DNA from: a bacterium A37T11
GTDB lineage: Bacteria > Bacteroidota > Bacteroidia > Sphingobacteriales > Sphingobacteriaceae
NCBI GenBank assembly: GCA_900109895.1
Contig: FOBR01000006.1
Coordinates: 62,001-126,000 of the forward strand
Direction: 5' to 3'
DNA length: 64,000 bases
Shown: piece by piece, positions 23,683-62,284 of the stretch
Layout of the letters: every line of letters begins with the position of its first letter
Position numbering within the stretch: position 1 is the stretch's first letter
The notes under the pieces: model-generated
What the model was told of the DNA's origin: nothing
What the model saw: the letters and a program-made list of their open reading frames with translations, nothing else
Databases searched by the model: none
Translations under genes and position numbers: made by a program

Positions 23683-23701
23683 CTATTTTTTTTAGCCGCT
23701 T

Positions 23702-25515: not shown

Positions 25516-28356
25516 ATGCGATTTATTTCCCTAATTCTCTCCATGGGTTTGCCCGTTATTTTACATGCAAAAGAAACAGATACATTAAAAAATAGCTTGA
25601 TAAGAGAAAAAAACGAAATTAGAGATACTGTAGTCATACCTAAAAGAATTACTAACTTACCATCAACTTCTCTACAACAGTATCTTAAAGGGGAAAATGT
25701 CGGACTCTACATCAAAGAAAATAATGGAGAACCAGGCACCATTCAATCCATGTATATTAGAGGCATTACAAAACCAGTTTTAAATCCTACGGACAACTAT
25801 CAACTTCAGCCTTTAATTGTTCTTGACGGCATACCAATGGCTGGAGATCATCCTTTTTCCTATGATATTCAAGAAAATAACGTAAACAAACTAGGACCAG
25901 CAACCAACCTATTAGCAACCATAGATATCGATAATATTGAAAGTATTGAGATATTAAAAGATCCGGCTGATATTGCGCAATTTGGCCCATTAGGTGGTAA
26001 TGGTGTAATTAAAATTACTACTAAAGCTCCTTTGGGAGGAAAACAAATAGGCGTAAACTTTTATACCGGAGTATCATTCAAGCCCCAGGTAGAGACTATT
26101 AATGCTAACTTTGAGAATAGATTCAGAAAGCAATTTTATAACCAATATGCTAATGACTATGAATTAGATACTTACCCAGTTTTCTTAAGTGATTCAATGA
26201 ATAATGATTACTATGGACCCTCAAATTGGTCTGATAGTTATTATAAAAATGGTATACTGGAAGATTTTAATGCCAATATTTCTACTGACACTAAAAATGC
26301 AAAATTTAAATTTTCTTTAGGTAATTTAATCAATAAAGGAATAGCTGACGGGACTGGACTAAAACGATACAGCGCAAGATTTCTAGTCGAAATGAAACCA
26401 TTAAATTGGTTATGGGTATCCGCACTGGTTAATGGCAACAGATTAGAGAGAGACAGAAACAGGAATTTAAGAGATCGGTTTGCAGAAATGAATTATTTAC
26501 CTGACCTCACCTCTCCACTTTCACCAAATAAAGGTAATTACAATTCATATTTGGAAGAATTTGACCAATCATTTGACAAAAACATTACCAATTTGATTAA
26601 TGGAAATATATCACTAAAAGTAAACTTGGGAAAATTTAATTTTACATCCAGAATAATTGCTGATTACAATGAAGGAAATAGAGATGTCTTCTACCCAAAA
26701 GCATTATTAATAGATAACAGTTATGCATCAAACTATTATGGCCTTAATCAACGAATATTTTTTGACAATACCGCTATTTATAATTTTAATATAAATTCTG
26801 AAAATCAAGTTGACCTTAAAGCTGGAACAAGTCTGGATTGGGAAACATATAAGTATAATTACATGAAAGGTTTTCGGGGAGTTAATGATTTTATCCAAAT
26901 ACTCACATCTTCTGGAGCTTTTCCTAAACAATTATTATACAAATATATAGACAAAACTGTACACAATATGATATCCTTCTATGGAAGTGGAAGCTATCAA
27001 TACAAATCTATATTTAATGCTGCATTATTTTTACGTGCCGATGGTTCTTCAAATGAACAGCCAACCAGTAGGTGGTTGTTTCAGCCTTCTTTAAAAATAA
27101 ACTGGAATATAAAAGAAAATTTATTAAAAGAAAATAACCTCCTTTCAACTTTAAAAATTATTGCAAGTTTAGGAAGAATAGGTTTATTAAATTCTTCCGA
27201 TTATTATTCACAAGGACCTTTGTATCAATCAGAAATAGGGTATACTGGTAATTCAACTATTCCATCATACATTGGAATCTCTACATTAACAAGGCCTTAC
27301 AGCCAAGGCTGGATTGGTTATAATCTTAATTGGGCTTATTCCGACCAACTTGATCTCGGATTAAATATAGGTATACAAAATGACAGGTTAAATGCTGCTA
27401 TTAATTATTATATCAAAAATAACAAAAATCAGTTAATAGGAATCCCTTCTTATATGGAATATGGATATAGCCAATCCTATATGGCTGGAATGAATGTCCA
27501 AAATCAGGGTATAGAATTCGCCTTAAATTGGCAAATACTGTATGGTCAAAAAGACAAATTAAAATGGAATTTTGCACTAAATATCAGTTACAATAAAAAC
27601 ACATTACAACAACTTCCAAATCAACTTAATGAGCTTACCATAGACAACAGACTACTCAAGGTGGGACAATCTATTGATCAATTTTGGCTTTATAAAAATG
27701 AGGGAATATACCAAGCACAAAACGAGATTCCCGTTGGAAAAAATTATAGTGGCATATTGTTTAAACCCGGTGACCCCATATGGAATGATGCGAATATAGA
27801 TAACCGGATAGATGAGTCTGATAAAATACTTACTGGTCATATTTTTCCAAAATATACAGGAGGATTTTCAAATCATTTAAGTTATAAAAATTGGGATTTA
27901 AATACAACATTTTATTTTAACATTGGACGAGATATTATAAATGCTGAAATGGCGAATAAATTTGATTTCATCAATCAGGAAAGTGAGCCAACAATAAACA
28001 ATATCAAAGAAATTACCTATTGGGAAAAAAGAGGAGACTATACTAAATATCCTTTGTATAATCCATGGAGTAATGTAATCCCTTACAGAAAGGATCAAGA
28101 TTTGTTTTTAGAAAATGGTTCATTTTTAAAATTAAAAACAATACAGCTAGGTTATGACCTGAGTAAGATAATTTATAAAAATCATAAAAACGGTCATATT
28201 AAAAAGTTTTATATCTATGGCACTGCCAACAATATATTTACGATAAGTCCTTACTCAGGGAGAGATCCGGAATTAGTGGATTATACAGGTTTTGACTACG
28301 GCTATAATATGGCTATTCCAAGCTCTTACACCTTAGGTATTAAAATGGGACTTTAA
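25516..28356 (+). CDS. SusC-like TonB-dependent receptor lacking the CnaB domain
   Basis: This 946-residue outer-membrane receptor begins with a signal peptide (FISLILSMGLPVILHAKE). A short linker leads straight into the plug (SLQQYLKGENVGLYIKENN, IRGITKPVL, LIVLDGIPMAG, DIDNIESIEILKDPADIAQF, GGNGVIKITTK). The barrel follows to the end. The usual SusC/RagA carboxypeptidase-like (CnaB) domain and EVVVxGY motif before the plug are missing, and the protein is about 110 residues shorter than the second SusC in this array. With the SusD downstream it should import an oligomer released at the surface. First gene of a ten-gene array; frame is intact. Confidence 0.9.
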   Translation: MRFISLILSMGLPVILHAKETDTLKNSLIREKNEIRDTVVIPKRITNLPSTSLQQYLKGENVGLYIKENNGEPGTIQSMYIRGITKPVLNPTDNYQLQPLIVLDGIPMAGDHPFSYDIQENNVNKLGPATNLLATIDIDNIESIEILKDPADIAQFGPLGGNGVIKITTKAPLGGKQIGVNFYTGVSFKPQVETINANFENRFRKQFYNQYANDYELDTYPVFLSDSMNNDYYGPSNWSDSYYKNGILEDFNANISTDTKNAKFKFSLGNLINKGIADGTGLKRYSARFLVEMKPLNWLWVSALVNGNRLERDRNRNLRDRFAEMNYLPDLTSPLSPNKGNYNSYLEEFDQSFDKNITNLINGNISLKVNLGKFNFTSRIIADYNEGNRDVFYPKALLIDNSYASNYYGLNQRIFFDNTAIYNFNINSENQVDLKAGTSLDWETYKYNYMKGFRGVNDFIQILTSSGAFPKQLLYKYIDKTVHNMISFYGSGSYQYKSIFNAALFLRADGSSNEQPTSRWLFQPSLKINWNIKENLLKENNLLSTLKIIASLGRIGLLNSSDYYSQGPLYQSEIGYTGNSTIPSYIGISTLTRPYSQGWIGYNLNWAYSDQLDLGLNIGIQNDRLNAAINYYIKNNKNQLIGIPSYMEYGYSQSYMAGMNVQNQGIEFALNWQILYGQKDKLKWNFALNISYNKNTLQQLPNQLNELTIDNRLLKVGQSIDQFWLYKNEGIYQAQNEIPVGKNYSGILFKPGDPIWNDANIDNRIDESDKILTGHIFPKYTGGFSNHLSYKNWDLNTTFYFNIGRDIINAEMANKFDFINQESEPTINNIKEITYWEKRGDYTKYPLYNPWSNVIPYRKDQDLFLENGSFLKLKTIQLGYDLSKIIYKNHKNGHIKKFYIYGTANNIFTISPYSGRDPELVDYTGFDYGYNMAIPSSYTLGIKMGL

Positions 28357-28388
28357 CCAAAAAATCAAGCTATTTAAGATATCAAAAA

Positions 28389-29906
28389 ATGGTTCATATA
28401 AAATTAAAATCTGCCATGCTGGCAACGTTAATAATCGTATTTAGTAGCTGTAAAAAAATGCTAGATGTGGATTCAAGCAGCGCTGTAAGCGAAGTTAATA
28501 TGTGGCAACATATGGAAGATGCAAAAGCAGCACTTATGGGCGTTTATGGATTAACTAGAGCAGCTCTGGCTGATAATGACGCATTTTGGTTATATGGTGA
28601 AGTTCGCCCTGGAGAATTTATTAGCCCTGGTAGACAGGATCTAAAAGCGATAGCGAATAATGAATTAACCGCATCTTATGCAACACTCGAAAATCTCACT
28701 AACTGGAGACGTTGGTACGCCGCCATTAATGCTGCAAATTTATTTTTGGAACGTATCCATGAGGTAAAGAGCAAAGATGAACATTATACCGAAAACAACA
28801 TGAATGTTGATATAGCACAGGTTAGAAGTTTAAGAGCTTTTGCTTATTTCTATATGGCCCGAATTTGGGGTGATATTCCCTTAATTTTAGCCTCAAATGA
28901 AAATGAATTTGTAAATAAACCTCGGGAAGATCAGAACAAAGTCCTGGCATGGGCACAAACTGAACTTGAGGAATCTGCTGAACAGCTCCCTTTTGAGTAT
29001 AGTACACAAGATGAAAAACAACAAGGTGATTATTATAATGAAACCTCAGATAAATGGGCTGGTGCTTTAATAAGAAAACTTTCTGATTACGCCATTTTAG
29101 CACATATTTCTGCCTATCAAGGAAATTATCAGGAGGTTGCTAATTATACTGCATATATTATTAATAACTATTCTTCCAGTAAAATGAATTTCAGCAGTTC
29201 CTCCTATCTTGGAAGCAGTACAGGACTTTTTAACAATAGGAACTCAAACCAATTATTAGGTTTCAGCTTTGATTGGAATTACCAAGAAGGTTCTCCTGTT
29301 GGACATATAGAAGAATTAACTCTTGCAAGTCCATTAGTAGACAAAGAGGTTCCAGATCTTTACTTACCCAAAAATAAAATAATAGACATTTTTACGGAAG
29401 ATAAAGATGGTCGATTCTACCTGGACACACTTGGGAATCCTGGAAATGAAAACTATTTCACTAATTTTACTAGTAAGTACCCAATATTCAGTAAAATAAA
29501 TTGTAATTTAGGAGGTGAAACTGCTGATGAAAATTTCAGTACGTTTACAAGTGCTATCATATTTACCAGACTGGAAGATATCGTATTGCTTCGTGCAGAA
29601 GCCTTATTTGCTTTAGGAGATAGATCCGATGCTGAATCAACCTTAAACACCATAAGAATAAAAAGAGGATTGAATAATTATTCCAAAGATATAAATGGTG
29701 ATTTATTAACCAGCATATTTACAGAAAGACAAAGAGAACTTATGGGGGAAGGACATCGATGGTATGACCTAATCAGATTCAACAAACTTAGAAAGGTAAA
29801 TGATAATATAAGCAATTTAATAGAAAACGGAGGCATTTATTGGCCAATATCCAAAAATGTCCTAGGTCAAAACAGTTTATTGGAACAAAACAATTATTGG
29901 AAATAG
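28389..29906 (+). CDS. RagB/SusD family surface lipoprotein
   Basis: This 505-residue lipoprotein has its lipidation Cys at residue 21 (VFSSCKKMLDV). SusD-type features are the helical TPR-like scaffold with NWRRWYAAINAANLFLERI, VRSLRAFAYFYMARIWGDIPLI, and the C-terminal RLEDIVLLRAEALFALG, LNTIRIKRGL and FTERQRELMGEGHRWYDLIRF. It caps the SusC barrel encoded 32 bases upstream and binds the incoming substrate at the cell surface. The substrate cannot be inferred from the sequence. The next gene begins only 3 bases after its stop. Confidence 0.95.
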   Translation: MVHIKLKSAMLATLIIVFSSCKKMLDVDSSSAVSEVNMWQHMEDAKAALMGVYGLTRAALADNDAFWLYGEVRPGEFISPGRQDLKAIANNELTASYATLENLTNWRRWYAAINAANLFLERIHEVKSKDEHYTENNMNVDIAQVRSLRAFAYFYMARIWGDIPLILASNENEFVNKPREDQNKVLAWAQTELEESAEQLPFEYSTQDEKQQGDYYNETSDKWAGALIRKLSDYAILAHISAYQGNYQEVANYTAYIINNYSSSKMNFSSSSYLGSSTGLFNNRNSNQLLGFSFDWNYQEGSPVGHIEELTLASPLVDKEVPDLYLPKNKIIDIFTEDKDGRFYLDTLGNPGNENYFTNFTSKYPIFSKINCNLGGETADENFSTFTSAIIFTRLEDIVLLRAEALFALGDRSDAESTLNTIRIKRGLNNYSKDINGDLLTSIFTERQRELMGEGHRWYDLIRFNKLRKVNDNISNLIENGGIYWPISKNVLGQNSLLEQNNYWK

Positions 29907-29909
29907 GTT

Positions 29910-31031
29910 ATGGCAAGTAAACAATATTTTAACTATATATTTTTCGGCATTTTGGTTTGTTTGGTATTATCTATTATGTTTAGTTGTAATAAAAAAAGTC
30001 TATATTACGACCAATATGCAGACACCACATCCTACAGTGGAAATGCCATTGCCTATTTAAAGAGTAAACCTGGTCAATTTGACTCTCTCTTAAAGGTTAT
30101 TCAATTGATGAATTTAGAAACAACATTAAAAGATAGCAACATAACATTATTTGCTTTACAAAATACAAGTTTTCAACTCGCTATTGAAAATTTAAATTCT
30201 GTAAGAAAAATAACGGGTAAAGCACCTCAATATTTAGAAAGTATTAAACAACAGCAACTTGACACTATGTTGTGTGAGTATATAATAAAAGGACTTTATA
30301 CAAGCGATGATTTTAACTTACAGGATGGGCTAATTGTAAATGGTGTAAGATATGGTAAGGAAATGAATGCCCGACTTAATTTATATAATGCTTCTGGTTA
30401 CCTTAAAGGTGGGCCAAAGGCCATAGATTTTACTGATACTAGAAATAGTCAATTCTCTCGTGATTGGGTGACAGCCAGCACCACTACTACGGATATAAAA
30501 ACAAGCAATGCCCGAATTAATGTTCTTGACAAAGACCATGTTTTTGGATTTAATGATTTTGTCAGCAGACTTACTTATATCCCCCCACCAACAAATTTAT
30601 TTAGTTTAATTGGTGGTACAACTTCGGTATCAAAAGAAACAAGTGGAGGTGTAAATGGACCAGAAGCATCGAAATATGCCTTTGATGGAAATCCGGAAAC
30701 AAAATTTTTATTAATGGGATTTGTCGGGCCTCAATGGATACAATTCAAATTTGTTGAACCCACTGTTTCTAATTCTTATACAATTACTTCAGCAAATGAT
30801 GCACAAGACCGGGATCCGGCAGATTGGAATATTGAAGGATCCAATGATAGTCTTAATTATAAATTATTAGATGCGAGAGCATCAGAAGTGTTTGACAAAA
30901 GATTAACCACAAGAGTATTTAGGTTTAATAATACCATTGCGTATAAATACTATCGATTGACTATATTTAGGACCAATGGCAGCCCTGATATGCAATTTGC
31001 AGACTGGACAATGAATTTTGAAGAGAGATGA
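29910..31031 (+). CDS. FAS1-like plus discoidin-like lipoprotein
   Basis: This 373-residue lipoprotein has a lipobox at IMFSCNKK (Cys 26). Residues about 45-215 resemble a fasciclin (FAS1) domain: AIAYLKSKPGQFDSLLKVIQ, NITLFALQNTSFQLAIENL and a closing RINVLDKDHVFGFNDF. A C-terminal beta-sandwich (about 230-373) resembles an F5/8 type C or carbohydrate-binding module: KYAFDGNPETKFLL, WIQFKFVEPT, DRDPADWNIEGSNDSLNYK, YKYYRLTIFR. It may be a surface-exposed binding protein working with the adjacent SusC/SusD. A related C-terminal domain recurs in the gene at 41036. Confidence 0.82.
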   Translation: MASKQYFNYIFFGILVCLVLSIMFSCNKKSLYYDQYADTTSYSGNAIAYLKSKPGQFDSLLKVIQLMNLETTLKDSNITLFALQNTSFQLAIENLNSVRKITGKAPQYLESIKQQQLDTMLCEYIIKGLYTSDDFNLQDGLIVNGVRYGKEMNARLNLYNASGYLKGGPKAIDFTDTRNSQFSRDWVTASTTTTDIKTSNARINVLDKDHVFGFNDFVSRLTYIPPPTNLFSLIGGTTSVSKETSGGVNGPEASKYAFDGNPETKFLLMGFVGPQWIQFKFVEPTVSNSYTITSANDAQDRDPADWNIEGSNDSLNYKLLDARASEVFDKRLTTRVFRFNNTIAYKYYRLTIFRTNGSPDMQFADWTMNFEER

Positions 31032-31060
31032 TGACTTATTAAACCATAAAAATTTTAAAC

Positions 31061-32149
31061 ATGGATACAAGAAAAAATAGGTATATAGGAACCCTTATAC
31101 TGGGAGTTATCCTTCCTTTCTCAGGGTGCAAAAAGTTATACAATTTGCCGGAAGAAACACTTTATTTAAGTCCAGACATAAGTTATACCAGTCAAATATT
31201 AGAACCCGTATTAGGCAGGATGAATATATTAGGATCAGTATCTACCAATTATTCATCATTACCGATAACCTTCGAAATTAAAAATCCAAGATATGGTAAT
31301 GGAAAAGTATACAATGATCTATTTCAAGTAAAACCCACTTATGTCTGGGATGCGGAATATACTGGCAATGAGACAACCTTAGAAGAAATTGAATCGAAAC
31401 GTCATTTAGAAGACCATCCACTATTTGAAGTAGACAATAATGGTAACTTTATTTTGTGGCCCTCATCAAACAATGAACTTATTGAGCCCCGATCAATTGA
31501 TGGAGAAGATCTTACCCAGAATATCAGATATTTTGACTTAAAAATAAGTAACAGTCAGGGATCAAAAACCATTAAAGATTTTCAATTTCTTCCTTGGAGG
31601 GAGAGGCCATATGACCCATATACAGATATAGATCCATATACAGGTGAACTTGTTCCTGATCCGCTTGATCCAAGCAACCCGAACAAACACGATCACATTA
31701 CTCCTTCATTGAGTAATGTGGTGGGGGAAAAATCCAATGAACAACTTGTCATCAACTCTGAAAAAAGAGATGTAGTTGTATATATAAAACCATTTGAAGG
31801 GGGAAACGGGCACAACCTACGATTTAAATTTTTAAACACAGATTCCTTGCCTATTAATCCTGCTCAATTTAATGAAACCAAATGGGATAATATAATCCAT
31901 GGCTTCAATAAAACGATAACAGACAAATACGTTCAATATGATGTAGCATATCCAATACCACTTACTAATATTTCCACAAAATACAGTAGTAATGGTAATG
32001 CATCGGTCAACTTTTCCTACTCCAGATTAGGCTATGGTGGAATATTATCAATAAGCAATATAAGTTTGGAATTTAAAATATTTCATCCTGGCGATTGGGA
32101 AATTGTTTTTCACTTTATTAATGATAATCCAAAATTTGAAGACGATTAG
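31061..32149 (+). CDS. DUF5007-like lipoprotein
   Basis: This 362-residue lipoprotein has its Cys at residue 23 (LPFSGCKKLY). The rest is a beta-rich protein with PVLGRMNILGSVSTNYSSLP, GNFILWPSSNNELIEPRS and a proline/aspartate-rich patch (PYDPYTDIDPYTGELVPDP, about residues 185-205), ending in HPGDWEIVFHFINDNP. It resembles the DUF5007 proteins encoded beside SusC/SusD pairs in Bacteroidota; that assignment is from memory. A surface or glycan-binding accessory role fits the context but is unproven. It ends 13 bases before the second SusC. Confidence 0.65.
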   Translation: MDTRKNRYIGTLILGVILPFSGCKKLYNLPEETLYLSPDISYTSQILEPVLGRMNILGSVSTNYSSLPITFEIKNPRYGNGKVYNDLFQVKPTYVWDAEYTGNETTLEEIESKRHLEDHPLFEVDNNGNFILWPSSNNELIEPRSIDGEDLTQNIRYFDLKISNSQGSKTIKDFQFLPWRERPYDPYTDIDPYTGELVPDPLDPSNPNKHDHITPSLSNVVGEKSNEQLVINSEKRDVVVYIKPFEGGNGHNLRFKFLNTDSLPINPAQFNETKWDNIIHGFNKTITDKYVQYDVAYPIPLTNISTKYSSNGNASVNFSYSRLGYGGILSISNISLEFKIFHPGDWEIVFHFINDNPKFEDD

Positions 32150-32162
32150 TTTTTGCAATAAC

Positions 32163-35100
32163 ATGGAAAATACATATCAGAATTATAGGTTTAAAAAATT
32201 AAGGTCTATTTATTGTCTCTTACCAGCAATACTCATACTATTTTCGCAATTTTTAACTTCACCATTGCTCGGCCAAAATCAACGATTCATTAAAGGCTTG
32301 GTTGTTGATGAAAGTAATAATTCGATGCCTGGAGTAACAATAGTAAGTTTTAAAACCAAAAAATCGCTTGGACAAACAAATACAAAAGGAGAGTTTACGG
32401 TAAAGATCGGCGACAATGAAAATCTTTTGTTCAAATTTATAGGCTTTGTTAACAAGACAGTGATCATAAAACCAACCGATAAAAACATAACCGTTGTTTT
32501 AAAGGAAGATCAAAACGGTTTAGATGAAGTCGTGGTAAGAGGTTATGTAAGCCGTTCAAAAGAATTAAGTACAGGCTCATCTTTTACAATAAGCGGTGCT
32601 GAAGTGCAAGATGTACCCGTTGCCAATATTGAACAATTACTCCAAGGAAAAGTTCCAGGTATGAATATTCAGATTAATACAGGTGCACCTGGATTCAGGG
32701 GGACAACACAAATAAGAGGTCTTTCTACGCTCTCAGTATCCGGAAGTGGAAACGAATCCTTTTTACAGCCTACATCGCCCTTATATGTTATTGATGGAGT
32801 TCCCCTCGACGCAAATAGTGCAGAGGAAATGGGTTATCAACAACAAGGCCCTGGAGTAAGTCCTTTATCCATGATACCACAGGAAGATGTGGAAAGTATT
32901 GAAATTTTAAAAGATGCACAAGCTACTTCCCTATATGGTTCTATGGCTGCTTATGGGGTAATTATAATTAAAACGAAAAGGGGAAGCTCAGAAATCCCCA
33001 GAATTAGATATACAGGTAATTATTTTGTAAAAACACCGCCAAAATTGAGATCAACGTTAGGAGGTAATTTAGAAAGAGCTTTTAAAATAAATGAAATTTT
33101 ACAAAATGCGACCTCCATTAGTGATATTGATAAAATATCTCAAACACCATTTCTTTCAGATAGTTTGAATGCTTATTATAATAACAGTACTGACTGGCAA
33201 GGATTATATTATGGAAGTACTTTTAATCAAAGCCACAATTTGGCCATTGATGGCGGAGATCAAACATTTTCCTATAAAACGAACCTTGGATATTATAATG
33301 AACAGGGTATAATTCAGAATACCGGTTTTGAACGGTATACAGGAAATATACGAATGGATTACCAGCCTAATAACAGTAATCTGAAATTTATGGGCCAGTT
33401 TACCGGACAAATTGGGAAACAAAACAAAGGAAGTGGAACTGGATTGCTTCAAACTGGCGTTGCCAGCAGCGGACAATCGTCCACCCTATTACCAGACCCT
33501 TCATTCTATACTAGCAGTAATGAATATCTTTCTGCCTTATCCACAGACGATGATAACCTAGTTAAATCGTTAAGGGCAAATATCGAGGCAAGTTATATGA
33601 TTTTAAAAGGATTATCTGCCAACGCAGCTGTAAGTTACCATTTTCAATCAAAAACAGAGTCGACTTTCGTTCCTGCGGAAGCAAACAATATGATAACTAA
33701 AAATTATGCTTACAATGGAACAGAAACTGAATTATACAGCAGAAATAGCCTAACCTATTCACTATCATTACATGATAAACATAATTTCTTTTTCAATGCT
33801 TTTAACGAAATTAGAATAGTCAATAGCCAAAATGCTTCAATAACACAGGTTGGAACGGCTAATGATCAAATAAAGGGTCCTATTGGATTTGATGCGATTA
33901 AATCGGAGGGCGGAATAGTTGATTATAATGATCAAAGGGCAATATCATTTGCATTAGCCGCTTCCTATGATTATAAAAAGAAATACGTTTTGGATCTTTC
34001 CTATAGATTGGACGGCTCTTCAGGAAATGGTTTTGATGATTTGTACACTAAAAATCCGGCAGTTGGACTTCGTTGGAATTTCAGCAAAGAGAATTTTAGT
34101 AGTGAGTTAGACTGGTTAAATATGGGTGCTATAAGATTAAGTTGGGGAATAAATGTAATTCCAAACAGTACTTTGCAACGAATTTATGGGAAATATAACA
34201 TAACTGGAAATTATAATGGTGAGCAAGGAATAGGTATTGATTATGGCACAATTCCTAATCCCGTTCTGAAACCAACAACCACAAGCCAATTTAATTTAGG
34301 ATTAGATTTAAATCTATTTCATAATAAAATAGACCTGATATATGATACCTATTATAAGAAAGTAGACAATTTATTATTTGATATGTCTCTTCCAAATACA
34401 GTAGGATTTTCCACATTAAACAGCAACGATGCTGCAATTTCAAATTATGGTCATGAATTGTCTATAACATTTAGGCCATTGCCCGCTACCAGCAAGGTAG
34501 ATTTTATGTTTACTATAAACGGAGCATATAATAAAGACGTATTGACTAAATTGCCTGCCGAATATGGTGGTCAATATATAAGATTTGATACTGGAGACAC
34601 CAAGCAGCACAATTTATACCGTGTAGGGTCGGCAACATTATCTAATTACTTATTGATAAACGAAGGTGTCTATGCGACAGATAGTGACGTACCGGTAAAT
34701 CCGAAAACTGGCCTTAGATATCAAACAAACGGAACATTTTTTCAAGCCGGAGACCCCATATTTAAAGATATGAATGGCGATTATATTCTTGATGAAAAAG
34801 ATTACACAAGAACTGGAAATAATCAGCCTCTATTTACAGGGGGTATGTCAACTACCATAGGATACGCCAGCTTCACATTGAGTATAAATGCTTCTTATAC
34901 ATGGAAACGCACCATTTTAAACAATGCACTCGCGGACAGATTAAGTCTTATGAAAGATCCATTTTCATCAACTGCTGTCGTGCCTCTTACTGATATTAAT
35001 ATGTGGAGAAAACCCGGTGATATAGCTAAATATCCTTACGCATATAATTACACCAGATTTAGTACCATTTCACCATTTAGGTATGATCAAACACTTTGGG

Positions 35101-35339
35101 CTGAGGACGGATCTTATTTAAAAATAAATAACATTATTTTAGCTTATCAGTTTAATAAAAGATTAGTAAGAACTTGGGGATTAAACAATTTAAGAGTTTA
35201 TCTTTCAATGGATAATTTAATTACGTTTTCTCCATATTCGGGGCCTAATCCCGAAAACGTAACTTCTATGGGACGCGATGTATCTAACGGATATCCAGTT
35301 CCAAGAAGCTATAATATAGGTATAAACATAGAATTCTAA
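32163..35339 (+). CDS. SusC/RagA TonB-linked outer-membrane receptor
   Basis: This receptor is 1058 residues from the ATG at 32163. I prefer this start because it begins 13 bases after the previous stop and gives an N-terminus ending in a signal segment (LPAILILFSQFLTSPLLGQN). The CnaB domain (about residues 35-120) includes FIKGLVVDESNNSMPGVTI. A TonB-box-like LDEVVVRGY follows, then the plug (IEQLLQGKVPGMNIQINTGA, IRGLSTLSV, PLYVIDGVPLD, DVESIEILKDAQATSLYGS) and barrel. It is a full-length SusC, unlike the first copy, and pairs with the SusD at 35352. Substrate unknown. Confidence 0.96.
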   Translation: MENTYQNYRFKKLRSIYCLLPAILILFSQFLTSPLLGQNQRFIKGLVVDESNNSMPGVTIVSFKTKKSLGQTNTKGEFTVKIGDNENLLFKFIGFVNKTVIIKPTDKNITVVLKEDQNGLDEVVVRGYVSRSKELSTGSSFTISGAEVQDVPVANIEQLLQGKVPGMNIQINTGAPGFRGTTQIRGLSTLSVSGSGNESFLQPTSPLYVIDGVPLDANSAEEMGYQQQGPGVSPLSMIPQEDVESIEILKDAQATSLYGSMAAYGVIIIKTKRGSSEIPRIRYTGNYFVKTPPKLRSTLGGNLERAFKINEILQNATSISDIDKISQTPFLSDSLNAYYNNSTDWQGLYYGSTFNQSHNLAIDGGDQTFSYKTNLGYYNEQGIIQNTGFERYTGNIRMDYQPNNSNLKFMGQFTGQIGKQNKGSGTGLLQTGVASSGQSSTLLPDPSFYTSSNEYLSALSTDDDNLVKSLRANIEASYMILKGLSANAAVSYHFQSKTESTFVPAEANNMITKNYAYNGTETELYSRNSLTYSLSLHDKHNFFFNAFNEIRIVNSQNASITQVGTANDQIKGPIGFDAIKSEGGIVDYNDQRAISFALAASYDYKKKYVLDLSYRLDGSSGNGFDDLYTKNPAVGLRWNFSKENFSSELDWLNMGAIRLSWGINVIPNSTLQRIYGKYNITGNYNGEQGIGIDYGTIPNPVLKPTTTSQFNLGLDLNLFHNKIDLIYDTYYKKVDNLLFDMSLPNTVGFSTLNSNDAAISNYGHELSITFRPLPATSKVDFMFTINGAYNKDVLTKLPAEYGGQYIRFDTGDTKQHNLYRVGSATLSNYLLINEGVYATDSDVPVNPKTGLRYQTNGTFFQAGDPIFKDMNGDYILDEKDYTRTGNNQPLFTGGMSTTIGYASFTLSINASYTWKRTILNNALADRLSLMKDPFSSTAVVPLTDINMWRKPGDIAKYPYAYNYTRFSTISPFRYDQTLWAEDGSYLKINNIILAYQFNKRLVRTWGLNNLRVYLSMDNLITFSPYSGPNPENVTSMGRDVSNGYPVPRSYNIGINIEF

Positions 35340-35351
35340 GAATAATGCATT

Positions 35352-36881
35352 ATGAAAAAATATAAAACAACTATTGCCTTAATGCTATTAATCCTTTTAA
35401 GCACTGAAGCATGTAAAAAATTTCTGACGGTGATCCCAAAAGATAGTTTGACTGGAAATAACTTTTATAGGAACAAAGAAGATGTTGAAGCAAATATTGC
35501 TAACATGTACAGTACATTTTTTAATAAAATAAATGAAAGCTGGGTCATCGGTTCCATAGGAGAAGCTAGGTCAGGTGAAATTCACGCATCTACAGACTCT
35601 TATTATTATACTGCTAGCAGAGTTGTAGAAGTTCTTGGAAAAAACGATATGTTAAGTGTAGTAAATGAATCTGCTAATTGGAAAGACAACAATTATGTAA
35701 ACATTACAAAGTGGGATAATTATTATCAAGTTATTCAATCTGCCAATATTTTAATTAGTAAACTAAACGAAGGCATTGAAACATTAACTGAAAAAGAAAC
35801 TAAAAGATATTTAGCTGAAGCTACGTTTATAAGGTGTTTTACCTATTTTTGGATGGTCAGGATTTATGGTGATGTAGTTTATTACACGGATCCATATTAT
35901 GCAAGTGCATCCCCCAGGGAAGATATGATAACTGTGATCAATAAATGTTTAGCCGACCTTGAATCACAAAAAGATAATATTGATTGGAATTTAGGTGATC
36001 CGGCTCTAAAAGGAGCCAGAGCAAGCAGGGGAAGCTTAGTCGCTTTGCTAATGCACATGAATATGTGGAACGCAGGTTTTGATAAGGTTAATGCAAACTC
36101 TTATTATCAAAAGGTAGCCAACTTAGGGACTGAATTAGTTAATAGCGGCCAATATAAATTATTACCTATGACTATTGAAGGTTGGGGACAAGTCATAAAA
36201 GGCCGATCTGATGAAAGCCTTTTTGAATTTTATAGAAGCATAAATTATAACGATTCAAACAATAATATTGCGCCATTCGCGGAATTTTTTCTGAGATGGC
36301 CCTATAAGTTTCCAAGAATTGACGAACAAGTAAGTAAAGCGTACTATTCGGCTGATTATATGAAAAAAATATTTCCTGTAGATATTGACGACAAACGTAA
36401 AGATTTGTGGTTTGAAGATATGCTTTCAGATGATGGAGAATTTGTTGCAAAGAAATTTGCATATAATGTGTATGCTTCGGGAAATGAAAATAAAAATCCC
36501 GATAATACCTTTTTGATATTTAGGTATGCAGATGCTATTTTATTGTGGGCAGAAGCATTAGCTCAACAAAACAACATTTCTCAAGCTTTAAGTGCCATTA
36601 ATATGATTAGAGAAAGAGCAGGTGCACCATTATACACAGAGAAAGATGGAACAGAATTGCCAAATTATATCTTTTTGGAAAGAGAGCGTGAATTATTTGG
36701 AGAAGGCCTTCGTTGGTTTGATTTGGTAAGAACTAAACGTGTATTAAGCTCAGAATGGGTAAGTCACACCTTAAGTTCAGATCAATTTAATCGCAGAGCC
36801 TGGACATGGCCTATTCATCGAAATGCGTTAAACAATAATCCCTCCTTGTCTTTAAACGAATACTGGCAATCAGCAAATTAA
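35352..36881 (+). CDS. RagB/SusD family surface lipoprotein (second copy)
   Basis: This 509-residue lipoprotein has its Cys at residue 21 (STEACKKFLTVIPKDSLTG). SusD signatures are YYQVIQSANILISKLNEG, ATFIRCFTYFWMVRIYGDV, FRYADAILLWAEALAQ, AINMIRERAGAPLY and ERERELFGEGLRWFDLVRTKR. It starts 12 bases after the SusC stop and should form its surface lid. It differs in sequence from the SusD at 28389, so the two pairs may bind different parts or sizes of a substrate; that is inference. Confidence 0.96.
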   Translation: MKKYKTTIALMLLILLSTEACKKFLTVIPKDSLTGNNFYRNKEDVEANIANMYSTFFNKINESWVIGSIGEARSGEIHASTDSYYYTASRVVEVLGKNDMLSVVNESANWKDNNYVNITKWDNYYQVIQSANILISKLNEGIETLTEKETKRYLAEATFIRCFTYFWMVRIYGDVVYYTDPYYASASPREDMITVINKCLADLESQKDNIDWNLGDPALKGARASRGSLVALLMHMNMWNAGFDKVNANSYYQKVANLGTELVNSGQYKLLPMTIEGWGQVIKGRSDESLFEFYRSINYNDSNNNIAPFAEFFLRWPYKFPRIDEQVSKAYYSADYMKKIFPVDIDDKRKDLWFEDMLSDDGEFVAKKFAYNVYASGNENKNPDNTFLIFRYADAILLWAEALAQQNNISQALSAINMIRERAGAPLYTEKDGTELPNYIFLERERELFGEGLRWFDLVRTKRVLSSEWVSHTLSSDQFNRRAWTWPIHRNALNNNPSLSLNEYWQSAN

Positions 36882-36894
36882 ATTAAGAAAAACA

Positions 36895-37632
36895 ATGAAT
36901 ACGTCAAATAAAATATTCAACCAGTTAGTAACATTTTATTTTTTTTCTTTTCTGGCTTGTATATATTTATCTTCTTGTGGAAAAGATAAATATTACATAG
37001 ACGGAGGGGTAGCTAATGGAAAATTCGAAGGCAGTACATTGGAATATTTAACTTCTAAACCAAGAGAATTTGATAGTTTGGTAACCGTAATAAAATTAGC
37101 AGGACTCGAAGAAACATTTGAAAAAGATGAAATCACTTTTTTTGCCCCTAGGGACGAAAATATTAAGGCTTTAATTGGAAATATCAGAACTGACAACACC
37201 GTCAATAACCTATTATATTTTTTGGGTCGTGATACCGTAAAGGCATTAAATGACATAGATTCCACCATATGGCGTAAGTACCTGCTAAGACACGTGTTTA
37301 AAGGAAAGCACAAATTGGCAGATTATCCACAGATAGATTTTGAAATAACCAATGTCTATCCGGGAGAGAATTATTATTCTTACAGTGGCGATGTAAGCAA
37401 TATTGGGGTTGTTTTTAACGATGCAGGCGGAGTAAAATATGCAGGATACCGACAATTATACATATCTTACATTTCAGATATGACTAATCCGGATCAACGG
37501 TATTCAGTTCCTGTAGCTTCATCAGATATAGAGCCCGACAATGGGGTTGTCCATGTACTTGATTATACAAAAGCAGAGTTTGGATTTTCACAATACGATA
37601 TGGTTATAGATATTGAAAATAGCAAAAGATAG
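36895..37632 (+). CDS. FAS1-like lipoprotein (second copy, no discoidin domain)
   Basis: This 245-residue lipoprotein has a lipobox at IYLSSCGKDK (Cys 28). One FAS1-like domain fills the protein: STLEYLTSKPREFDSLVTVI, DEITFFAPRDENIKALIGN and the closing NGVVHVLDYTKAEFGFSQYD. The opening is clearly related to the FAS1 region of the protein encoded at 29910, but the C-terminal beta-sandwich of that protein is absent. FAS1 domains mediate adhesion or ligand binding. It starts 13 bases after SusD and ends 6 bases before the next gene. Confidence 0.83.
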   Translation: MNTSNKIFNQLVTFYFFSFLACIYLSSCGKDKYYIDGGVANGKFEGSTLEYLTSKPREFDSLVTVIKLAGLEETFEKDEITFFAPRDENIKALIGNIRTDNTVNNLLYFLGRDTVKALNDIDSTIWRKYLLRHVFKGKHKLADYPQIDFEITNVYPGENYYSYSGDVSNIGVVFNDAGGVKYAGYRQLYISYISDMTNPDQRYSVPVASSDIEPDNGVVHVLDYTKAEFGFSQYDMVIDIENSKR

Positions 37633-37638
37633 TATAAT

Positions 37639-39258
37639 ATGAGAACAAATCAATTAAATATTTCAATCAAATTTTTGCTCTTCTGCATCTTTTTGAATTC
37701 CTGTAAAAATGATATAAAAAAGTATACCACTGCTTATGAAAGTCCAAAATCTGTATTGCCCGTATCCTTGGATAGGACACAAACGCCAATTCCTGCCTTT
37801 GGAATACCCGGTACGCTTGTTAGTATCAAAGTAAAAGGATTACTTCCCTATAAAGACGTGACTATCTTTAAATTTAACGGACAAACAGCAACTATCAAGG
37901 AAATTACAGATTCTGTATTAGTCGCTGAAGTTCCTAATAATGCAACAACTGGAATTATTTCAATATCAATAAATGATGTCGTACTCTTTGGACCAAATTT
38001 TAAAGTTGATGGAAAAATAAATATAGATAACACTTTTAAAATTAAAAACGGGACTAACGGAAGTGTTAATTCTTTACTTAAGACTGCTGATGGAAAAATT
38101 ATTTACTTTGGATCTTTTACTAATTTTGATAATAAAGCAGTACTTGATCCTATAAATAAACTAGCAAGAACTTATTCGGATGGCACATATGACGCCACCT
38201 TCAGAACTGGAAAAGGAGCAAATGGTTATTTAAGTAGAGGAATACAAATTAACAATAAATTATATATTGCAGGAAATTTTTCCGCATATGATCAACGTAC
38301 ACAAGATATAAGTAATTTAACGCAATTAAACTTAAATGGAAGAATTGACACTATAGGAGTACACACCTTTAGGAGACCAGATCAAACAGATACTATAAAA
38401 TATTATCCAACATTCAATGGAGGTGTTGATGGAAATTTAGAAAGTATTTATTTTCATCAAAACAAAATTTTAATAGCTGGATCCTTTACAAATTACATAT
38501 ACCGAGAATATGACAAGCCTAACAAGCTTGAAACAAAGGATAGTGTAATTATACACAAAATACCGATGAATCAAATAGCATTATTAAATTTAGATGGTAG
38601 TCTCGATAAAACTTTCCGCTTTGATCAATCAGCAAGTAAGGGATATAGTTCTGCTAATGGTCCTATAAGTATATATTACCATACCGATGAATTATTAAAA
38701 GGGAAAATATTAGTATATGGTTCATTCACAAAATTTGACGGACAGCCCGAAGGATATATTCTCAGGCTTAATCCAGATGGCACTAAAGACAAAACTTTTA
38801 ATCCCGGAGGAAGTGGTGCTGATTACAATATCAGTTATGCATCATACAATCCACTGACTAAAAAATACATGATATGTGGAAATTTTAAAAATTATAATGG
38901 AAAAAATTCACCTATGCTGGCTATGTTAAATCAAGATGGAACTCTTGACCAATCATTTATACCTAAAATATTTGATGGTGGCCAACCAAGATTTGTATAC
39001 CAATTATCTGATGGAAAAATTTTAGTAAGCGGAATATTTGCCAAGTATAATTATATATCAAGAAGCAACCTTTTATTTTTAACCAATACTGGTGAACTTG
39101 CAGAAGGTTATAATGCTTATGGAGATGTATCAGGTATCATTTCAAATTTATATGAAACTACCTCTGATGATGGTAAAAAAGCCCTTTTAATATTAGGTAA
39201 TATAAGAAGTTTTAATGGTGAAAATGTAAATAATCTATTTAGGATCACATTAGAATAA
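37639..39258 (+). CDS. DUF5008-like lipoprotein with IPT and delta-60 repeats
   Basis: This 539-residue lipoprotein has its Cys at residue 22 (FLNSCKNDI). An IPT/TIG-like domain (about residues 50-125) reads TPIPAFGIPGTLVSIKVKGL with FNGQTATIKEITDSVLVAEV. A repeat region then shows the delta-60 beta-propeller pattern: LNLDGSLDKTFRFD, LNPDGTKDKTFNPG and LNQDGTLDQSFIPK, alternating with YGSFTKFDG-like strands. This fits the DUF5008 group as I recall it. It is likely a surface binding protein. It starts 6 bases after the FAS1 gene, in the slot that DUF5007 fills in the first set. Confidence 0.75.
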   Translation: MRTNQLNISIKFLLFCIFLNSCKNDIKKYTTAYESPKSVLPVSLDRTQTPIPAFGIPGTLVSIKVKGLLPYKDVTIFKFNGQTATIKEITDSVLVAEVPNNATTGIISISINDVVLFGPNFKVDGKINIDNTFKIKNGTNGSVNSLLKTADGKIIYFGSFTNFDNKAVLDPINKLARTYSDGTYDATFRTGKGANGYLSRGIQINNKLYIAGNFSAYDQRTQDISNLTQLNLNGRIDTIGVHTFRRPDQTDTIKYYPTFNGGVDGNLESIYFHQNKILIAGSFTNYIYREYDKPNKLETKDSVIIHKIPMNQIALLNLDGSLDKTFRFDQSASKGYSSANGPISIYYHTDELLKGKILVYGSFTKFDGQPEGYILRLNPDGTKDKTFNPGGSGADYNISYASYNPLTKKYMICGNFKNYNGKNSPMLAMLNQDGTLDQSFIPKIFDGGQPRFVYQLSDGKILVSGIFAKYNYISRSNLLFLTNTGELAEGYNAYGDVSGIISNLYETTSDDGKKALLILGNIRSFNGENVNNLFRITLE

Positions 39259-39285
39259 TAATTAAAAACGTTTTAAATCAAAAGT

Positions 39286-41001
39286 ATGTTAGGCTATATA
39301 ATCAAAAAAAATATATTTTGGAAAATGTTATTATATACATTAATTTCTTCCATAATATTAAGCTGCAATGAAGATTTTAAAAAGCTAATTGAAACAACAA
39401 ACCAGATTGATTCAATGAATGTTACTTATGGAGAATCAAAAGTACTCTATTTAATAGTAGACGGTTTAAGAGGAAAGTCATTGCAAAGTGCTAATGTACC
39501 AAATATCAAATCATTGCTTACAAATTCCATATATTCATATTATTCACTAAATGATGAAGATTCTAAATATATTTATACCAACTGGGCTGACATGTTGACT
39601 GGAGTTGACAAAAGCAAACATTTAGTAGAAGGTGACTTAAGAAAAAATAATTTTATAAAATACCCTATAATTTTTAAACACGTAAAAGAACTATCATCCA
39701 AATATAAGGTATATTCAATATCTGACGACCCTGTATTTAGCCAATATTTCGGAGCAGAGGCTATCAACAATCTGAAAGTATCTTCGGACGAGGAAGTAGA
39801 ATCAAAAACTGTTGAATCTTTATCAGATGATTCCGTAACGATGTTAACAGCTCATTTTACTCAGGTTAATAAGGTGGGTAAGTTATATGGCTATGATATA
39901 TCTAAAAGTCAGTATGCCGATGCCATTCAAAATTTTGATAATTCGGTAGGGAAAATTTTAAATGCATTAAAATCAAGAAGAAATTACAGTAAAGAAAGAT
40001 GGTTGGTTATTATCGCATCGAGTAAAGGAGGGGATTATACCATTGATGAAACACAAAATGATCACACAATTTTTTCAAAGCCAATAAATAATACTTTTAC
40101 CATTTATTGGAGCAGCACATACAAAACAAACTACATTAATAAACCTTTCGTTGGAAATAACTTACAGGGAGAATTCATCCGCTTTGGGAACACTCATTCA
40201 GCTTATGTATCCGAAGGAGAAAATAGTTTATATAATTTTGGAACTCGAGTGTATACCATTGAAATAAAAATTAAAAAAAATCCAGGTATTGATAGTAGTT
40301 ATAAATTTACAAATGCACCTATAATACGTAAAATAAAAAATTGGTCAACTGACAGTTCATCAAATGGTTGGTCCATATATTTAGATGGAAATAGCTGGAA
40401 GTTTTCTGCTATTGGCAGCCAAGGGAAAGGGACTGTTTCAGGAGGAACACTTTCTGACGCCACTTGGAACAATATAACGGTAGAATGTATTCAAAAAGAG
40501 GATATTAGATATATAAGAACTTATACTAATGGAAATTTCAATAATGAAACCAATATCCAAAATTGGGGATATTTTGACAACCCAAATCCATTAGCATTAG
40601 GACACCAAAATGGAGATGTTGAAGGAACTTTGGATGCTTATTTGGCGGATGTAAGAATTTGGAATGCGGCACTTCCAGATGAAGTTATCAGCAAGTATTC
40701 ATGCCTTGGTGAAATTAATGATGATCACCCTTATTTTAATCTGCTAACGGGAAATTGGCCGATGGTAGATATTCAAGGAAACAAAATACTAGATCAGGGA
40801 CCTTTCTCCAGCAATATGACATTAACAGGGGGGATCTTTACAAAAAAATATTTGACTGAATACCTTTGTGCCCCCTCAGCAAGCGAACTAAGTATGCTTG
40901 TTCCACGTGGGGTCGACATTCCTGCGCAAATCATTAGCTGGTTGAAAATTCCCCGGAATGAGGATTGGGATCTAGACGGAAGAGTTTGGTTAGACGAGTA
41001 A
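39286..41001 (+). CDS. alkaline-phosphatase-like plus LamG lipoprotein (DUF4983-like), probably inactive
   Basis: This 571-residue lipoprotein has its Cys at residue 27 (IILSCNEDF). Residues about 45-295 resemble a type I phosphodiesterase/alkaline phosphatase fold: YLIVDGLRGKSL, then YTNWADMLTGVDKSKH. Where active relatives show vDxxGH and SDHG or SNHG metal motifs, this reads QVNKVGKLYG and IASSKGGD, so ligands look lost. A LamG-like beta-sandwich (about 300-470) has VYTIEIKIKKNPG, ATWNNITVECI and LGHQNGDVEGTLDAYLADVR. The C-terminal LVPRGVDIPAQIISWLKIP matches a DUF4983-type tail. A binding rather than catalytic role is inferred. Confidence 0.75.
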   Translation: MLGYIIKKNIFWKMLLYTLISSIILSCNEDFKKLIETTNQIDSMNVTYGESKVLYLIVDGLRGKSLQSANVPNIKSLLTNSIYSYYSLNDEDSKYIYTNWADMLTGVDKSKHLVEGDLRKNNFIKYPIIFKHVKELSSKYKVYSISDDPVFSQYFGAEAINNLKVSSDEEVESKTVESLSDDSVTMLTAHFTQVNKVGKLYGYDISKSQYADAIQNFDNSVGKILNALKSRRNYSKERWLVIIASSKGGDYTIDETQNDHTIFSKPINNTFTIYWSSTYKTNYINKPFVGNNLQGEFIRFGNTHSAYVSEGENSLYNFGTRVYTIEIKIKKNPGIDSSYKFTNAPIIRKIKNWSTDSSSNGWSIYLDGNSWKFSAIGSQGKGTVSGGTLSDATWNNITVECIQKEDIRYIRTYTNGNFNNETNIQNWGYFDNPNPLALGHQNGDVEGTLDAYLADVRIWNAALPDEVISKYSCLGEINDDHPYFNLLTGNWPMVDIQGNKILDQGPFSSNMTLTGGIFTKKYLTEYLCAPSASELSMLVPRGVDIPAQIISWLKIPRNEDWDLDGRVWLDE

Positions 41002-41035
41002 ACCGCGTATATTTAAGGAAATCATCAATTTAAAA

Positions 41036-42115
41036 ATGAAAATGAAAATAACTATTATGTCTACAAAGGCTTTTAAAATAAAACTAAAACGAAACAGGCT
41101 AAAATACATTATAATTTTAGGAATGATTTTGTTTTTCAATTCTTGTAAAGATAAAAAAGAAGTAAGTAATGTAGAAGAATTACCTAACCCAACTGCAAAC
41201 TTTACTTCAGCAGAAGTATCAGAAAAAGATCCATTTACATATAAATTTATTAGTCAGTCAGAAAATTATAAAAATATATTCTGGGATTTTGGTGATGATA
41301 GTGTGGCGTATGATGAAACACCACTACATACCTTCTCAACAACAGGAGAATATAGAATAAAGCTAGTTGTAAAAAATGAATTGAAGGATTGGGCTCAGAA
41401 TGAAGAAATTATTAAAATAGAGGCAGACAGCATATTAGACATACAGGCTCAGAAGCATTCTGGTACTTTAATGAGGCTTTCCCCAAAAACTTCCATGGAT
41501 ATTGATAGTGCCTTTTGGTATAGAGATTCAAGTAGTAACCCAGTTTTAATTGATATAGCCTCCTCTATTGATGTGTCTGCACCAACCGGTTCGCTGGAAA
41601 ATTACACCTTAAAAGTCAAAACAAAGAAAAAATCTGTTGTTCAAATTAATAGACTATTAAGTGAAAGGGGAATCGTATATGATGTTACGAACTCAGGTGT
41701 ATTTTCTGTTTCAGCAGAAAACTCATCCGGCAAAGACGCTTCTGAAGGATCATTAAAACTGATTGATAATTTAAAAACCACAAAATTCTTACTATTTAAC
41801 TTTGCAGGAAATTTATGGATAGAATTTAAATATTATAATCCCACCATAATTAGTGCTTATAGCCTCACTACGGGAAATGATGCCCCATCAAGAGATCCAA
41901 AAGATTGGTATATGGCTGGTTCAAATGATGGAATAGATTGGAAGGTTCTTGATCAGCATTCAGAAGAGCATTTCAGTGAAAGAAGAATGTCCGTTACCTA
42001 TTTATTCAACAATAAAACCCCTTACCGATATTACAGATTATTTATTACAGAAATAAATAGTGGTACCTTATTCCAAATGTCAGAGCTAAGAATGCTGCAA
42101 TTTCCATCTGAATAA
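41036..42115 (+). CDS. PKD plus discoidin-like lipoprotein
   Basis: This 359-residue lipoprotein has its Cys at residue 37 (LFFNSCKDKK) after a basic N-terminus; later in-frame Met codons at residues 3 and 8 are alternative starts. A PKD domain (about residues 50-130) shows the diagnostic IFWDFGDDSVAYDETPLHTF and EYRIKLVVKN. The C-terminal half resembles F5/8 type C domains (IEFKYYNPTIISAYSLTTG, RDPKDWYMAGSNDGIDWKVL, YRYYRLFITEI) and is clearly related to the C-terminus of the protein at 29910. It is the last gene of the compact array; a 107-base gap follows. Confidence 0.82.
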   Translation: MKMKITIMSTKAFKIKLKRNRLKYIIILGMILFFNSCKDKKEVSNVEELPNPTANFTSAEVSEKDPFTYKFISQSENYKNIFWDFGDDSVAYDETPLHTFSTTGEYRIKLVVKNELKDWAQNEEIIKIEADSILDIQAQKHSGTLMRLSPKTSMDIDSAFWYRDSSSNPVLIDIASSIDVSAPTGSLENYTLKVKTKKKSVVQINRLLSERGIVYDVTNSGVFSVSAENSSGKDASEGSLKLIDNLKTTKFLLFNFAGNLWIEFKYYNPTIISAYSLTTGNDAPSRDPKDWYMAGSNDGIDWKVLDQHSEEHFSERRMSVTYLFNNKTPYRYYRLFITEINSGTLFQMSELRMLQFPSE

Positions 42116-42222: not shown

Positions 42223-43140
42223 ATGAATTATTTTTCATTATTCTTCACATCTCTAAGTTTTTTGGCAACTCCCCAAAAACAGTTCTCAACCTTATTTGTA
42301 CCTGATCCTCCTCCCCCTCTCACATGGACAGAGCATTGGTTTGACCATACTCAAGTGTTAAAACGCCAATACTTTGATAACTCAATCGCATTGTACTATG
42401 ATGACGATATGGATAAATCCATAACTTGGCCAATACGTTACTTGGGTGCAGCCTGGGCATATACACAAAAAAATTACGGTCCTTTTGGTGATAGTTCCAG
42501 GTTATTTATTAATCTGCATGCTGCTAAATATGGTGGTGGCCATCCCTCAACCTATTTTGACGCCAGTCATGATTATCGTAATGTGATTGATATTGGTCAG
42601 AAAAACTCCTGGGCTGACAGTACGGGATGGAATTTGGATGCAACAGTACATGAGATCGGTCATATTATAGAAGGTTCTTCACACCATACCCATAATTCTC
42701 CTGCATTTGGAATATGGCATGACAGTAAATGGATAGAGATTTTTCAATATGATGTGTATAAAAAATTGGGATGGGAAAGTGATGCGGACCGCTGGTATAC
42801 TGACAAAATGAAAACTATTGATAACTTTCCGCACCCCAATACCCAATGGTTTAAAAATTGGTTTTATCCGATTTACAGTGAAAATGGTGAAACAGCTGTT
42901 TTAAAAAAATTCTTTACGCTACTAGCTGAGAATTTTCCTAAAAATTCAATTGGAAAGGATAGATTTGAATACACCCGTAATCTTAACTTTGGAGAATTCG
43001 TTTTTTTCTGGAGTGGCGCTGCAGGCAAAGACTTAAAAGAGCTAGCCTTACATGCTTTTGGTAGTAAAGATGAAAAAGGGACAGATTGGATTCCTCAATT
43101 TGATCAAGCAAAAAAAGAGTTTTCTAAAATAAAATTTTAA
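42223..43140 (+). CDS. secreted HEXXH metallopeptidase-like protein
   Basis: This 305-residue protein has a hydrophobic N-terminus (YFSLFFTSLSFLATP) that probably directs export; no lipobox is present. The zinc-binding HEXXH motif is H143-E144-I-G-H147 (TVHEIGHIIEGSSHHTHN), followed by a tryptophan-rich FGIWHDSKWIEIF that may give the third ligand. Early residues include proline-rich VPDPPPPLTW and the YDDDMDKSI patch. I cannot place it in a named peptidase family; it may share the BSP-like fold with its neighbour. It lies between the SusC/SusD array and the BSP gene, suggesting surface or periplasmic proteolysis. Confidence 0.72.
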   Translation: MNYFSLFFTSLSFLATPQKQFSTLFVPDPPPPLTWTEHWFDHTQVLKRQYFDNSIALYYDDDMDKSITWPIRYLGAAWAYTQKNYGPFGDSSRLFINLHAAKYGGGHPSTYFDASHDYRNVIDIGQKNSWADSTGWNLDATVHEIGHIIEGSSHHTHNSPAFGIWHDSKWIEIFQYDVYKKLGWESDADRWYTDKMKTIDNFPHPNTQWFKNWFYPIYSENGETAVLKKFFTLLAENFPKNSIGKDRFEYTRNLNFGEFVFFWSGAAGKDLKELALHAFGSKDEKGTDWIPQFDQAKKEFSKIKF

Positions 43141-43960: not shown

Positions 43961-44008
43961 TATATTTGCAAAAACAACATGGGGCCTTTTTTTAAAAAAG
44001 AGGGCCCC
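43961..44008 (+). promoter_or_regulatory. -7-like box and leader hairpin before GH92
   Basis: TATATTTG at 43961-43968 matches TAnnTTTG, but no -33 TTTG is well placed. From 43981 to 44008, GGGGCC pairs with GGCCCC, and T-rich and A-rich segments between them extend the stem with a small bulge. The hairpin falls between the possible start point and the GH92 ATG at 44034. It could end transcription from the BSP gene, or be a 5' leader structure of the GH92 mRNA. Confidence 0.45.
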
Positions 44009-44033
44009 AATGTTTTTCAAAAAAAATCAAGAA

Positions 44034-51918: not shown

Positions 51919-51935
51919 AATTAAACGTTTTTATT

Positions 51936-53864: not shown

Positions 53865-53887
53865 ATTTGATCATAAACAATAAACAC

Positions 53888-55066: not shown

Positions 55067-55068
55067 CC

Positions 55069-56193: not shown

Positions 56194-56203
56194 TGAATGT
56201 TAT

Positions 56204-56251
56204 TTCCGGGTTCCTGATTTTTTGAGGAGACTCATTGAGCAGGGCCCGGAA
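56204..56251 (+). terminator. hairpin between convergent operons
   Basis: TTCCGGG plus CCTG pairs with CAGG plus CCCGGAA across small internal bulges (56204-56216 with 56240-56251), and an inner TGAG/CTCA adds to it. TCATTTT follows. It lies 10 bases after the plus-strand operon and before the end of the minus-strand operon at 56341. Nothing else is seen in this 147-base gap. Confidence 0.5.
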
Positions 56252-56340
56252 TCATTTTCAGTTGTTCCAAACAACAGTACTTTTTATCCATAATTGCTTA
56301 TAACATAATAATTTTATAGTGAGAAGTAAAACAGCGGACA

Positions 56341-59853: not shown

Positions 59854-59857
59854 TAAT

Positions 59858-62266: not shown

Positions 62267-62284
62267 GATTCTATAATCTTATAA

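Follow-up and report, generated by a model that had tools for sequence, protein, structure and literature searches.

The closest described counterpart of the system reported here is PUL5, the arabinogalactan polysaccharide utilization locus (PUL) BT0262-90 of Bacteroides thetaiotaomicron (PMC3243724). Its susC promoter, at BT0268, responds to arabinogalactan through a hybrid two-component system regulator (HTCS; PMC6874557), namely BT0267 or HTCS_Aga-1 (PMC3878776). The published table lists SusD, hypothetical, DUF5007, SusD, and DUF5124 proteins across BT0269-75, followed by carbohydrate-binding, alkaline phosphatase (AP) family, and hypothetical proteins at BT0277-79 (PMC10434189). Two SusC/D-like pairs, with functionally different SusDs, are also described in the chitin utilization locus of F. 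johnsoniae (PMC5127042). Here, we analyze a ten-gene array at positions 25516-42115 of a 64,000-nucleotide stretch (the window) from contig FOBR01000006.1 of the Sphingobacteriaceae bacterium A37T11. The array belongs to a known kind of import machine, i.e. the SusCD/surface-lipoprotein part of a PUL, in a form specific to its lineage, and it has a described counterpart in a human gut bacterium. We consider it probable that it acts as a dual-SusCD capture and import cassette within a GH92/metallopeptidase locus, most likely for (mannosylated) glycoprotein-derived glycans or glycopeptides.

The array consists of ten open reading frames (ORFs), annotated by domain profile matches:

25516..28356, + strand: SusC1, a SusC/RagA-type TonB-dependent receptor without the N-terminal CarboxypepD_reg extension (NTE) (TIGR04056, 410.6 bits; Plug only)
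28389..29906, + strand: SusD1 lipoprotein (PF07980; nearest solved structure 3hdx, B. thetaiotaomicron)
29910..31031, + strand: lipoprotein with FAS1 and discoidin (F5/8C) domains (PF02469, PF00754)
31061..32149, + strand: DUF5007 lipoprotein (PF16398, 188.6 bits)
32163..35339, + strand: SusC2, a SusC/RagA receptor with the NTE (TIGR04056, 643.5 bits; PF13715); the ATG at 32163 is the likely start
35352..36881, + strand: SusD2 lipoprotein (PF07980; nearest solved structure 3iv0, B. thetaiotaomicron)
36895..37632, + strand: FAS1 lipoprotein (PF02469)
37639..39258, + strand: lipoprotein with DUF5008 (TIG-like) and a delta-60/DUF5122 propeller (PF16400, PF17164, TIGR02608)
39286..41001, + strand: AP-LamG, a lipoprotein with AP-fold, LamG, and DUF4983 domains (PF01663, PF13385, PF16356)
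41036..42115, + strand: lipoprotein with PKD (PF18911, over cut-off) and discoidin (PF00754, just under its cut-off) domains

This layout bears out an earlier sequence-only reading of the window, which had reported two SusC/SusD/FAS1 sets among ten same-strand genes with short gaps. The domains are as it described, and the gaps range from 3 to 34 bp (32, 3, 29, ~13, 12, 13, 6, 27, and 34 bp in order from SusC1 to the PKD gene). All products other than the SusCs have lipoprotein-type N-termini with an early Cys; the array thus holds two adjacent same-strand susC/susD pairs and, beside them, six further lipoprotein-type products. None of the ten products matches a family of carbohydrate-active enzymes (CAZymes) in domain profile searches, in line with the absence of a glycosidase noted in the earlier reading. 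On the + strand, the part of the window from 20 to 56.5 kb contains no copy of the Bacteroidota sigma-type promoter motif TTTG...TAnnTTTG. The source genome (5.09 Mb) has 143 SusD matches.

The two SusDs tie the array to PUL5. By sequence, SusD1 is closest to 3hdx (E = 4.2e-135) and SusD2 to 3iv0 (E = 7.9e-84), in both cases far ahead of other solved chains. PDB titles identify these structures as NP_809182.1 and NP_809186.1 of B. thetaiotaomicron VPI-5482, respectively, four accessions apart, as far as SusD1 lies from SusD2 in the window. Converting NP to BT numbers, we infer that both SusDs fall in BT0268-BT0279, inside BT0262-90, which agrees with the published table and the spacing; the comparison is based on PDB titles and published tables rather than on the DNA of the locus. 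On this numbering, PUL5 (BT0262-BT0290) has SusDs that match SusD1 and SusD2 one to one at the same four-gene spacing, and the published annotation lists SusC BT0268, SusD BT0269, a DUF5007 protein, the second SusD, and an AP-family protein in an order that agrees with the array. By contrast, the counterpart genes lie in an arabinogalactan locus under HTCS control, and BT0275 is called DUF5124. A model of SusD1, which is poor (predicted local distance difference test, pLDDT, 60), also aligns with 3hdx (45% identity, Z 26.7, root mean square deviation, rmsd, 3.6 over 339 residues); it served only to obtain PDB titles, and the argument is carried by the sequence matches.

Given these likenesses, together with the description of PULs with two SusC/D pairs (PMC5127042), the proposal of the sequence-only reading that the system is undescribed is not supported. 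The F. johnsoniae chitin locus also has two SusC/D pairs in one locus; however, it carries chitinases, and the accessible part of its description mentions no FAS1, DUF5007, or AP lipoproteins (PMC5127042). Our search of the literature on FAS1 in PULs found nothing that describes the ten-gene array. DUF5007 was also sought in Bacteroides, using 198 genomes at the phylum level, 395 at the class level, and 125 and 393 from the family and order of genome G573, and outside Sphingobacteriaceae these gave only two weak partial matches. No strong match occurs in the sampled Bacteroidales genomes, a sample that apparently does not include B. thetaiotaomicron.

The array is highly conserved in these soil Bacteroidota, the Sphingobacteriaceae and their neighbors. 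A DUF5007 profile search of the genome collection returned 220 relatives, and gene order was read in the best 80 of these, which include Pedobacter, Sphingobacterium, Parapedobacter, Olivibacter, Mucilaginibacter, Desertivirga, Anseongella, and two Chitinophagaceae records. The nine-gene order SusC1-SusD1-FAS1(discoidin)-DUF5007-SusC2-SusD2-FAS1-DUF5008-AP/LamG, whose presence in relatives the sequence-only reading had made one of its tests, is intact in 78 of the 80, which establishes the array as a real conserved module. The two exceptions are a contig edge (L112) and a SusD2 apparently masked by the ORF filter behind an antisense ORF (L106). Of the 624 gaps between genes, a single one is longer than 100 bp, at 124 bp. 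Mean identities of the relatives' array proteins to those of the window are 41-57%. Co-inheritance is also visible in the divergence of the nine genes, whose distance matrices correlate pairwise at 0.88-0.97; this is consistent with an array inherited as a unit, with a contribution from shared species descent. The PKD and discoidin gene is conserved after the AP gene, and an extra lipoprotein of ~460 aa (often PA14, weakly BT_3987-like_N), which the window does not have, usually lies between the two in relatives. Full-type AP-LamG relatives are found in about one fifth of 61 family genomes, nearly all with the array conserved around them. The result is a surface module of ten to eleven genes that is shared by Pedobacter, Sphingobacterium, Mucilaginibacter, Parapedobacter, and Olivibacter and always encodes two receptors along with a pseudo-enzyme.

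The pseudo-enzyme is the AP-fold protein. At the metal-binding Asp/His set of alkaline phosphatases and nucleotide pyrophosphatases/phosphodiesterases (D, D..GH, DHG), the window protein has D, N/K, and S/K, i.e. one metal Asp is kept and the D..GH and DHG ligands are lost. At least four of the five ligands are retained in none of 79 array AP domains, and all five in two stand-alone homologues. Because the ligands are lost, the AP-fold domain is, judging from sequence, very probably a pseudo-enzyme, and for the same reason we rejected an active phosphodiesterase, e.g. for phosphomannan. Separately, genome G057 encodes AP-LamG-DUF4983 proteins with metal ligands, likely active by sequence, at two loci without adjoining SusCD (L075, where they stand in tandem, and L077). 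In a second array subtype (L073:827-6315 and L081:1852-7225), two genes for AP-LamG pseudo-enzymes enclose one for a discoidin-bearing M60 (enhancin-like) peptidase.

The following features flank the array in the window:

22966..25090, - strand: divergent histidine kinase/response regulator (HK/RR) pair upstream of the array, a candidate regulator
42223..43140, + strand: putative zinc metallopeptidase MPep1 (HEIGH), assigned from sequence, with no Pfam family over cut-off and a weak M12-type hint
43232..43954, + strand: BSP-family peptidase (HEVMH; PF04450, 90.2 bits)
43980..44009, + strand: intrinsic-terminator-like hairpin with a T-rich tail, between the BSP and GH92 genes (-26.7 kcal/mol, z -5.8)
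44034 (about)..46334, + strand: GH92 exo-alpha-mannosidase family protein (PF07971, 576.7 bits; PF17678, 245.3 bits)

The earlier statement that the array has no glycosidase is correct for the ten genes but not for their surroundings, given that a gene with both the N- and C-domain profiles of glycoside hydrolase (GH) family 92 over cut-off starts 1.9 kb 3' of the array, after two metallopeptidase-like genes. It is these three genes that point to glycoprotein-derived glycans or glycopeptides as the substrate. Support for such a locus comes from relatives, in which five loci were read using the HEIGH peptidase MPep1 as query. The order HK/RR-SusC-SusD-discoidin-MPep1-BSP/GH92 is found in L224 (genome G044) and L227 (G052), and L226 (G060) has the same without HK/RR. 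Identities to the window genes in these loci are 40-46% for HK, 49-53% for RR, and 50-61% for MPep1, and one GH92 of L224 is 78% identical to that of the window. L224 and L227 thus share the HK/RR, MPep1, BSP, and GH92 kinds with the window, but hold a single ordinary SusC3-like SusCD pair where the window has the ten-gene array. Since the same neighbors flank an ordinary SusCD pair there, the window array appears to have taken its place as the importer of a GH92/peptidase locus. In addition, GH92-BSP-GH92 directly precedes the array in the same orientation at six Sphingobacterium loci, and the GH92 closer to the array shares 68-69% identity with that of the window.

The physical assembly, co-transcription, substrate, and regulation that we infer for the array can be outlined as follows. 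SusC1D1 and SusC2D2 would form two TonB-dependent "pedal-bin" importers, with the FAS1, DUF5007, DUF5008-propeller, AP-LamG, and PKD-discoidin lipoproteins as putative surface accessory or ligand-binding (adhesive or lectin-like) subunits and the AP domain as a catalytically dead scaffold. The cassette has no enzymes of its own and is paired with different degradative genes in different lineages; enzymes supplied by neighbors or from elsewhere would release glycans or glycopeptides for capture and import. In the window, it would serve the GH92 alpha-mannosidase/zinc-metallopeptidase locus, probably under the adjacent HK/RR. In relatives, such an HK/RR pair also adjoins GH92 loci, and it is not conserved with the array elsewhere.

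Several observations weigh against this proposal. The terminator-like hairpin at 43980-44009 splits GH92 from the array transcript, which suggests that GH92 is transcribed as a unit of its own or in attenuated form. In B. thetaiotaomicron, it is arabinogalactan rather than mannan to which the counterpart responds. Moreover, GH92 lies near the array in just 7 of 41 further genomes (~1.3 expected by random placement), 4 of these 7 belong to one clade, and in the source genome GH92 is near 9 of 84 SusD genes anyway. Given this clade and how common GH92 is near SusD genes generally, proximity alone is weak evidence, and its value as proof of mannan use is reduced.

Among the alternatives, the one that fares best, although we regard it as unlikely, is that the array imports arabinogalactan or arabinogalactan-proteins throughout Bacteroidota and that the GH92 and peptidase genes of the window are unrelated neighbors. 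The match of SusD1 and SusD2 to SusDs of a region induced by arabinogalactan through BT0267 speaks for it, as does the hairpin before GH92. However, no arabinogalactan-type enzymes were recognized among those ORFs that were annotated in the examined flanks; in relatives, MPep1-BSP-GH92 is again grouped with HK/RR around another SusCD; and GH92-BSP flank the array in Sphingobacterium too. Arabinogalactan-proteins, the substrate class in B. thetaiotaomicron, are also glycoproteins.

Somewhat more doubtful is a RagAB-like importer of peptides released by the metallopeptidases. Two HExxH genes lie directly 3' of the array, related arrays contain an M60 peptidase (L073 and L081), and RagA is among the SusC2 matches; against this, the array has several carbohydrate-binding-type domains (discoidin and LamG, with PA14 in relatives) and its B. 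thetaiotaomicron counterpart is glycan-induced. Least plausible is that the two SusCD sets were acquired independently and work separately side by side, as might be suggested by receptors that are just 25-29% identical and differ in the NTE (missing from SusC1 in the window and the three relatives tested, present in the window SusC2), because the sets are never apart in 78 arrays, the gaps are short, and divergence is highly correlated, though species descent also contributes.

Neighbors of the array are exchanged between lineages, and the other annotated flanks in relatives hold mostly housekeeping and transport genes. In many relatives, no adjoining CAZyme was recognized among the annotated flanking ORFs. 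For this reason, and with no CAZyme inside the array, the specialization in binding and import that the sequence-only reading proposed is reasonable, while the surface complex it envisaged would correspond to the assembly outlined above. As it also suggested, the two receptors may be for different products of one substrate. In genome G037, a candidate HTCS ahead of the array proved to be RpoC/RpoB. A bolder version, which we offer as speculation, is that the array is a portable, enzyme-free dual-receptor machine, which uses FAS1 adaptors and a dead phosphatase-fold scaffold to couple two TonB-dependent importers physically and is exchanged between enzyme loci (arabinogalactan, mannosylated glycoprotein), its substrate range being set by the neighbors. 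PMC5127042 treats the presence of two SusCD pairs in some PULs as unexplained, and the module offers many orthologous test cases. It also connects to SusDs whose crystal structures are known and makes a role for the DUF5007, DUF5008, DUF4983, and bacterial FAS1 proteins testable.

Individual proteins add further detail. The top PDB sequence match of SusC2 is the SusC homolog 8aa4_A, which we take, partly from PDB titles, to belong to the levan utilisome series (BT1760-1763; 8aa0-8aa4). The levan utilisome serves as a model in that SusCD is assembled with surface lipoproteins; unlike the array, it has one SusCD pair and an active GH, and it is not known to have FAS1 or AP-like subunits. For the discoidin part of the first FAS1 protein, the closest solved structure is a domain of the GH92 alpha-1,2-mannosidase 7nsn (E = 8.7e-27). 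DUF5007 has no relative by sequence in the PDB, and a Foldseek search with its AF2 model, which is mostly beta (pLDDT 88.4), gave no match at E <= 0.001; the first domain of the model resembles a domain of the SusE-like BT4661 (4ak1, Z 9.1, rmsd 2.2, 93 residues).

Two fusions connect the FAS1 proteins with SusD, i.e. SusD2-FAS1 as one protein in a second array of relative G007 (L070:11112-13415) and an unrelated FAS1-SusD protein in contig C26 of the source genome (L087:8988-11153). Two genes downstream of the latter, on the same strand, is an alpha-L-fucosidase with discoidin domains (L087:6278-8164). The source genome also has a version with a single set (C28:196000-215000, L088), where an HTCS regulator comes after SusC-SusD-FAS1-GH43-like-alpha-L-fucosidase; this is a FAS1-bearing PUL with CAZymes inside. 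Further along the window (48406-63844), two SusCD loci stand tail to tail, with SusC3-SusD3-DUF4959/5126/5000-DUF4998 on the + strand and GH106 rhamnosidase-DUF4998-DUF4959-SusD on the - strand.

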